NCBI GenBank assembly: GCA_017503235.1 | Contig: JAFVTL010000114.1 | Coordinates: forward strand, 1-48,364 | DNA from: Bacteroidaceae bacterium | Lineage (GTDB): Bacteria; Bacteroidota; Bacteroidia; Bacteroidales; Bacteroidaceae | Direction: 5' to 3' | Length of the DNA: 48,364 nucleotides | Shown here: piece by piece, positions 13,766 to 43,694 of the stretch | Layout of the letters: each line of letters starts with the position of its first letter | Position numbering within the stretch: position 1 is the first letter of the stretch | Program-made: the position numbers and the translations under genes | Notes under the pieces: model-generated | Databases searched by the model: none | What the model was told of the DNA's origin: nothing | The model's input: the letters and a program-made list of their open reading frames with translations, nothing else

Positions 13766-13857
13766 TGCCACGGCCTTGGCAGCGTCTTGCCACGGCTTTG
13801 GCAACAATCTGCCAAGGCCGTGGCAAAGTTCTGCCAAGAACTGGGAAAAGGTTGGCA
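13766..13857. repeat. 22-bp-period palindromic array, locus 1
   Basis: Four units start exactly 22 bp apart at 13766, 13788, 13810 and 13832. Units 1-3 are a 16-bp near-palindrome (TGCCACGGCCTTGGCA, TGCCACGGCTTTGGCA, then the exact complement of unit 1, TGCCAAGGCCGTGGCA), each followed by a 6-bp spacer (GCGTCT, ACAATC, AAGTTC). The fourth, TGCCAAG...GGTTGGCA, is longer and decayed. Units 1 and 3 can form a perfect 16-bp stem. It lies between the convergent 3' ends of ruvA and a lipoprotein gene. Confidence 0.85.
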
Positions 13858-27935: not shown

Positions 27936-27999
27936 TGAAAGTAAAGATGCGAATCCCATCAAATTCCCTGTTCTCTACAAATGGGAAACGAGGGATGAA

Positions 28000-28152
28000 T
28001 CAATATTCAAGCAATATCTTTTTGACGGCTTCTTGCATTCGAGGCAATTCTTCTTTAATAACATCAAAAACTATCGCCTCGTCAATATTGGCATATTCAT
28101 GAGAAATAAAGTTTCGCATATCATATGCCGCAACCCCGTACTTATCAGAAAA
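28000..28152 (-). pseudogene. HepT-like (DUF86, HEPN) toxin, C-terminal remnant
   Basis: Minus-strand reading from just after a TAG (28153-28155) to TGA (28000-28002) gives about 50 codons: FSDKYGVAAYDMRNFISHEY and then ANIDEAIVFDVIKEELPRMQ plus a helical tail. RNFISHEY is the RNase motif R-x4-H-x-Y of HEPN toxins of the HepT/MntA type, and the following helix matches the family's end. Intact HepT proteins are about 110-145 residues, so the N-terminal half is missing, and no MntA-like antitoxin gene is beside it. The remnant starts only 50 bp from the 22-bp array. Called from motif and helix pattern, not by search. Confidence 0.72.
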
Positions 28153-28201: not shown

Positions 28202-28318
28202 CCCTGACCAGTATGTTAATATCCTCCGACCAGCATATTAACATGCTCCGACCAAGAGAGTACTTTCCTCCGAGCAGGAGAGTACTGCGCTGGTCACCAA
28301 GTGCGGCCGCTCCTGGTC
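28202..28318. repeat. 22-bp-period modular array, locus 2
   Basis: Units begin at 28202, 28224, 28246, 28268, 28290 and about 28312, an exact 22-bp step. Each has a 10-bp box (CCCTGACCAG, CTCCGACCAG, CTCCGACCAA, CTCCGAGCAG, then the reversed CTGGTCA twice) and a 12-bp word. Words come in pairs: ATGTTAATAT and its complement ATATTAACAT in units 1-2; GAGAGTACT twice directly in units 3-4. The fifth interval contains the palindrome GCGGCCGC. No protein is encoded. The box is shared with locus 3 (43607). Confidence 0.85.
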
Positions 28319-28399
28319 ATCAAAAACGAGCTTACACCGAAAGGGGAAATACAACAACGAAATCAAGGCTTGCACCCATCTGCATAATGACCATTCGCA

Positions 28400-43606: not shown

Positions 43607-43694
43607 CTCCGACCAGCGTCGGCCTATGCTGCTCGGAGGATAGGCCTGTCCTGCTCGGAGCGTAGGCCTACGCTGGTCACACTATTTAAACGGC
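43607..43694. repeat. 22-bp-period modular array, locus 3
   Basis: Units begin at 43607, 43629, 43651 and 43673, exactly 22 bp apart. Boxes: CTCCGACCAG, CTGCTCGGAG, CTGCTCGGAG, CTGGTCAC. The 12-bp words all centre on GGCC: CGTCGGCCTATG, GATAGGCCTGTC, CGTAGGCCTACG, themselves in 22-bp phase. The box CTGCTCGGAG is the complement of CTCCGAGCAG in locus 2, and CTCCGACCAG and CTGGTCAC are identical there. Confidence 0.87.

Follow-up and report, generated by a model that had tools for sequence, protein, structure and literature searches.

A row of nearly constant boxes separated by 12-bp words lies in a 48,364-nucleotide stretch of DNA from a Bacteroidaceae bacterium (contig JAFVTL010000114.1, hereafter the window), and raises the question of what kind of element is built on so regular a step and what may copy or read it. 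To our knowledge, the short intergenic repeats of this gut-bacterial order have hardly been described. A search of the open-licence PMC literature for prior reports gave only papers on BrickBuilt and on REP elements. The row belongs to a dispersed family of arrays with an exact step, dyad units, a common order of word classes and no orientation preference.

Arrays of the window and their common unit

Array 1 (28202..28322, plus strand in the canonical orientation, in which the TTAA words come first) carries the boxes CCCTGACCAG at 28202, CTCCGACCAG at 28224, CTCCGACCAA at 28246, CTCCGAGCAG at 28268, CTGGTCACCA at 28290 and CTGGTCAT at 28313. The preliminary description had placed all six on one 22-bp step; boxes and 22-bp steps are present, but the last box begins at 28313, 23 bp beyond its predecessor. 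Five units on the plus strand can be delimited: 28207..28228 (word tatgttaatatc, TTAA class), 28229..28250 (catattaacatg, TTAA class, an inverted copy of the first word), 28251..28272 (gagagtactttc, GTAC class), 28273..28294 (gagagtactgcg, GTAC class) and 28296..28317 (gtgcggccgctc, GGCC class), the fifth starting one base beyond the end of the fourth, hence the 23-bp step. A sequence-only model of the family (R1, built from 27 arrays) matches at 28207-28317 with E 6.2e-28.

Array 2 (43607..43680; R1 match 43610-43686, E 2.3e-8) consists of three GGCC-class units at 43612-43633, 43634-43655 and 43656-43677. Its boxes, CTCCGACCAG at 43607, CTGCTCGGAG at 43629 and 43651, and CTGGTCAC at 43673, follow the 22-bp step and are shared with array 1, as had been described, and two of them are in flipped orientation. 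The words of this array had been called unrelated to those of array 1, but they too fall into a common class, being GGCC-centred.

The unit of the family is a 22-bp near-palindrome, ACCAG-N12-CTGGT, and each box is formed where the right flank of a unit meets the left flank of the next. As the words themselves are near-palindromic, the natural module is the 22-bp dyad unit; the initial picture of a module made of a box and exchangeable words is not supported, the boxes being junctions between palindromic units. Early boxes measure 10 bp (CTCCGASCAG), and late boxes are 11 bp long and nearly palindromic (CTGGTSACCAR), which accounts for steps of 22 and 23 bp. In 33 arrays with 177 words, the four bases at the word centre are GGCC in 41, GTAC in 38, TTAA in 37, AGCC in 20, GGCT in 13 and others in 28. 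The words, first held to be locus-specific, thus mostly fall into three classes common to many loci. In most arrays they follow the order TTAA, TTAA, GTAC, GTAC or GGCC, GGCC, so that the rows run from AT-rich to GC-rich centres, and the recurrence of this order at many loci suggests that arrays were copied as wholes. Flipped boxes account for 8 of 81, in 5 of 27 arrays.

To the left of array 1 lies a truncated open frame on the minus strand (27990-28140, ending in ..DMRNFISHEYANIDEAIVFDVIKEELPRMQEAVKKILLEY and a stop), which we take to resemble the end of a HepT/DUF86-type protein; it is missing from the shorter orthologous gaps of the related genomes G006, G009 and G010. A third array of the window, unrelated in sequence (13766..13838, between two ORFs), is formed by TGCCA..TGGCA palindromes at a 22-bp step in about 3.3 copies, and was found at this single place in the 360 kb of the same genome that were searched.

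Copies in the source genome and in related genomes

The genome from which the window derives (hereafter the source genome) was searched over 2.60 Mb in 145 contigs, corresponding to 83.66% completeness, and R1 finds the family at 36 places (E 7.8e-32 to 1.2e-4). CTCCGASCAG occurs in 40 + 35 = 75 copies, compared with 3 + 3 = 6 for the reversed control, and the pattern box-N12-box 21 times, compared with 0 in the control, so that chance is excluded. The view of a built, repeated system is upheld. The preliminary description had named two findings that would speak against such a system, namely boxes at random spacing and two loci derived from one duplication. Neither applies: 157 of 161 unit-to-unit steps measure 22 bp (103) or 23 bp (54), the remaining four (39 or 40 bp) falling where one unit went unrecognised, and the family occupies 36 places. 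The arrays are about 110-135 bp long, with four to seven near-palindromic units each.

Of the 36 places, eight are found no more than 500 bp from a contig end (5.6% expected); two of the 36, C88 and C104, stop at contig ends with identical letters and may represent one array cut in two. As the genome is incomplete and arrays are in excess at contig ends, the true copy number may exceed 36. The arrays therefore seem hard to assemble; they offer a useful set of markers for typing strains and help to explain why assemblies break. A viral carrier was rejected, since box-N12-box gave 0 matches in viral_contigs.

Both neighbours are known for 28 of the 36 arrays, genes being taken as uncurated ORFs of at least 100 aa. 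All 28 are intergenic once ORFs shorter than 150 aa that overlap the array by more than 40 bp are set aside. Their neighbours are tandem in 17, convergent in 6 and divergent in 5 cases, against a background of 36, 12 and 9 among 57 gaps between genes (200-1500 bp long) of the same genome, and the arrays run with transcription in 7 cases and opposite to it in 7. No preference for a strand, gene orientation or 3' end was seen among them. The 47 neighbours carry 100 Pfam families and no common one, none of the 25 families listed occurring in more than two neighbours; a phage integrase is among the families, and SusD adjoins one array, in keeping with the Bacteroidota. By eye, some arrays (L009, L043, L044) come after an apparent intrinsic terminator of the preceding gene.

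Across 61 genomes of the genus, searched with stricter filters, the family was found in the source genome only, besides one weak match among the 60 others, in G075 (E 2.4e-4). At the locus of array 1, the gap between the flanking genes, taken between aligned points, is 662, 679 and 561 bp in the source genome versus 191 bp in G006, 224 bp in G009 and 87 bp in G010; at two further loci (L039, L029) the orthologous gap is filled by different, unrelated sequence in the relatives. The array is missing in relatives at all three comparable loci, and the arrays thus arrived after the split from them; these relatives are too diverged to show an exact junction. Other inverted repetitive sequences, such as CTTACAATCTTACAAT and CACGGATTACACGGATTGCACGGAT, were observed in orthologous gaps of relatives (L250 in G006; L249 and L262 in G009).

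Similarity beyond the array extends over 48 bp between L024 and L026, about 200 bp between L019 and L028 and about 130 bp between L025 and L034, which suggests that some arrays were copied together with adjacent DNA. BLAST of the flanks otherwise gave short stretches at most (one left-end pair shares 48 bp), and matches of greater length were confined to two right-end pairs. The aligned flanks show no constant ends beyond GACCAG/CTGGTC, and neither terminal repeats nor target duplications could be cleanly delimited. Rows of other sequences at 22 bp (TAGTATGCCGTACCACGACCCG, TAGCTACTATACACCTGCATAC, ATAGATCTAT type) abut the family array in L179 (207-380) and in the right flanks of L019 and L028.

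Symmetry of the units and possible readings

Symmetry was examined in an alignment (A1) of 27 arrays, 26 of them distinct, selected as having the usual register and five units (L021 was shifted by one unit); the other 9 of 36 places have fewer than five units or another register, or were found later. In A1 the covariation score within units is 0.122 as compared with 0.088 +/- 0.007 for shuffled alignments (0 of 500 shuffles reaching it), slid pairings score 0.024-0.079, and unit halves pair in 67.4% as compared with 65.6% (again 0 of 500). The strictest measures in A1 are no higher than in shuffles (19 doubly changed pairs vs 19.7; 39 pair types vs 38.7). Word by word, in 25 sequences (one near-duplicate of the 26 distinct rows being left out), half-words covary in words 1, 3 and 4 (z 3.4, 3.0 and 3.5) and show no covariation in words 2 and 5. 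The unit halves covary modestly, and whole-unit replacement could be another source of this signal.

Pairings across boxes, by half-words as well as whole words, covary at or below chance. Hairpins that place the box in the loop were rejected on these grounds in both forms, though single-strand folding prefers them. Of 130 cells, the innermost word pair is Watson-Crick in 125 and the next in 93; as the best-paired position would be the loop of a hairpin, we read the symmetry as that of double-stranded DNA. Mismatches are G.T in 55 and A.C in 49 cases, so that neither strand is favoured as RNA.

The closest published relative found is BrickBuilt of Porphyromonas gingivalis. That paper (PMC4596501) describes a 23-nt minisatellite within a MITE, with 19 copies in one strain, long predicted stem-loops and a variable number of units, and also notes tandem repeats of 22 nt in strain W83, with no locations given. 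Both families belong to the same bacterial order and form dispersed intergenic arrays of units of about two helical turns. However, BrickBuilt consists of 23-nt direct repeats of other sequence, with a leader and tail that in some copies bear terminal inverted repeats of IS5-like type, whereas the family here has palindromic units, ordered classes, a step of mostly 22 bp and no such ends defined. A CRISPR array was rejected because the words are classes common across loci and not unique spacers. The box as query also matched Prevotella sp. RGIG1607 (9 loci), Prevotella Tb.RUG.463 and Porphyromonas pasteri, all with the same 10-bp box at a 22-bp step. These arrays differ from the family in their words, and homology was rejected for want of a BLAST match at 1e-10; 15 of 26 box-query matches are scattered in unrelated bacteria and archaea. 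As the box itself served as query, a common box may be due to chance.

REP and BIME elements are described (PMC3733652, PMC2817692) as small extragenic palindromes that are dispersed, clustered in both orientations and species-specific. The family resembles them in all these respects, the flipped boxes (8/81) included, and could consist of REP/REPIN-like palindromes that form single-stranded hairpins when the DNA is replicated and owe their copying to a transposase that reads such hairpins. We consider this unlikely. Up to seven abutting units stand in a row without spacers at one fixed step of 22-23 bp, unlike the REP/BIME elements of these descriptions, and the centre of the word, unpaired in a hairpin, is here the best-paired position. 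Y1_Tnp (PF01797, RAYT-type) gave 0 matches in the source genome at its 83.66% completeness, the domain being found in 5 of 14 control genomes. The GTAG or CGTC tag described at one palindrome end of REP families (PMC3733652) was not evident by eye in the array words.

Local minisatellites, functionless products of slippage or recombination on chance palindromes whose dispersal would be secondary, would fit the arrays found at a single place in the sampled sequence (window 13766, L179, L181) and the excess near contig ends. Slippage, however, offers no reason for one exact step over unrelated sequences, and the TTAA, GTAC, GGCC order recurs at many loci, a sign of copying as wholes; we hold this origin to be quite unlikely. 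Improbable to a greater degree still are arrays of RNA hairpins that would lie in untranslated regions and serve to stabilise transcripts or to end them. Three arrays do fold better than shuffles on both strands (z -2.92 to -7.07), but good folding is expected of any row of palindromes, the predicted folds join neighbouring words across a box in pairs that lack covariation, orientation to transcription is even, and G.T is not in excess over A.C. A known structured RNA was rejected, no Rfam family reaching its gathering score at the array (best 18 bits, cut-off 70).

In its behaviour the family resembles BIMEs and minisatellite MITEs, though it lacks or does not clearly show features that define them. 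Tentatively, and with somewhat less than even confidence, we lean to dispersed non-autonomous BIME/MITE-like elements whose units, set on one face of the helix, are candidate dyad sites in double-stranded DNA for the binding of a dimeric protein. An enzyme acting in trans would have copied whole arrays, descended from one ancestor, to new places in the genome. Each 22-bp unit would bind one putative protein dimer, the binder being either a nucleoid-type protein or the very enzyme that copies the arrays. Bacterial sequence periodicity is usually read as about 11 bp per turn (compare PMC4132750 and PMC516772), so that a 22-bp step puts all units, and with them the putative dimers, on one face of the helix. 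Such an alignment of dimers may explain why the step is kept while letters change between species, and one dimer per unit, in a row, would be the simplest reader of the 22-bp pattern. Neither a binding protein nor a transposase was found, which counts against these BIME/MITE-like elements.

The 22-bp step in other sequences

Noncoding self-similarity at lags of 21, 22 and 23 bp was found at 6, 14 and 9 places in the source genome (mean of other lags 1.00), 1, 7 and 2 in G075 (0.19), 6, 9 and 3 in G063 (1.03), and 0, 4 and 1 in ten pieces of ten other genomes of the genus (0.26). This shows 22 bp as the top noncoding self-similarity lag in the genus. In 20 further families of the order, sampled over 690 kb, no such peak appears (3, 3 and 0; other lags 2.10); the E. 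coli control, with 4.1 kb of noncoding sequence, is weak. A 219-kb sample of G013 lacks the lag-22 signal, which speaks against generality, although three palindromic 22-bp arrays lie elsewhere in that genome. The sequences on this step include TCAC-N4-GTGA in G063, GTTTATATAAAC and TATCACGATA in G075 and CGACCTAGGTCG in G013. In 23 other noncoding arrays of period 21-22, from which arrays of the family were removed by motif, a dyad is present at P < 0.05 in 7, so that not all arrays of this period are palindromic.

TCAC-N4-GTGA, a pair pattern picked after inspection of G063, occurs twice at a 22-bp step in 19 of 61 genomes of the genus (control 0 in 61), with 8 such pairs in the source genome, 80 in G076 and a maximum of 125 in G025; the last two are the richest genomes seen. 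Over 31 spacings (gaps of 2-32 bases) in 8 of the 19 genomes, 280 of 296 matches lie at exactly 22 bp, which argues that the step is kept far more strictly than the sequence; of the 16 others, all six listed are 44-bp steps with one unit skipped. At 16 loci (12 distinct arrays) the centre of the pattern lacks palindromic symmetry (outer pair 0.54, inner 0.26) and its four bases are free, as would be compatible with either a stem-loop or a dimer site.

A genus-wide conservation of geometry and not of sequence, by which a putative factor builds or reads dyad rows 22 bp apart in species-specific letters, may be conceived, although we regard it as rather doubtful. If a step of exactly two turns persists through the turnover of the sequence, the helix must be measured, either by selection or by a copying machine, and identifying the reader would tell whether the arrays are parasites, nucleoid binding platforms or both. 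At L279, L167 and L210, longer inverted repeats such as TTTGTTGTC..GACAACAAA bound the TCAC-N4-GTGA arrays and might be element ends.
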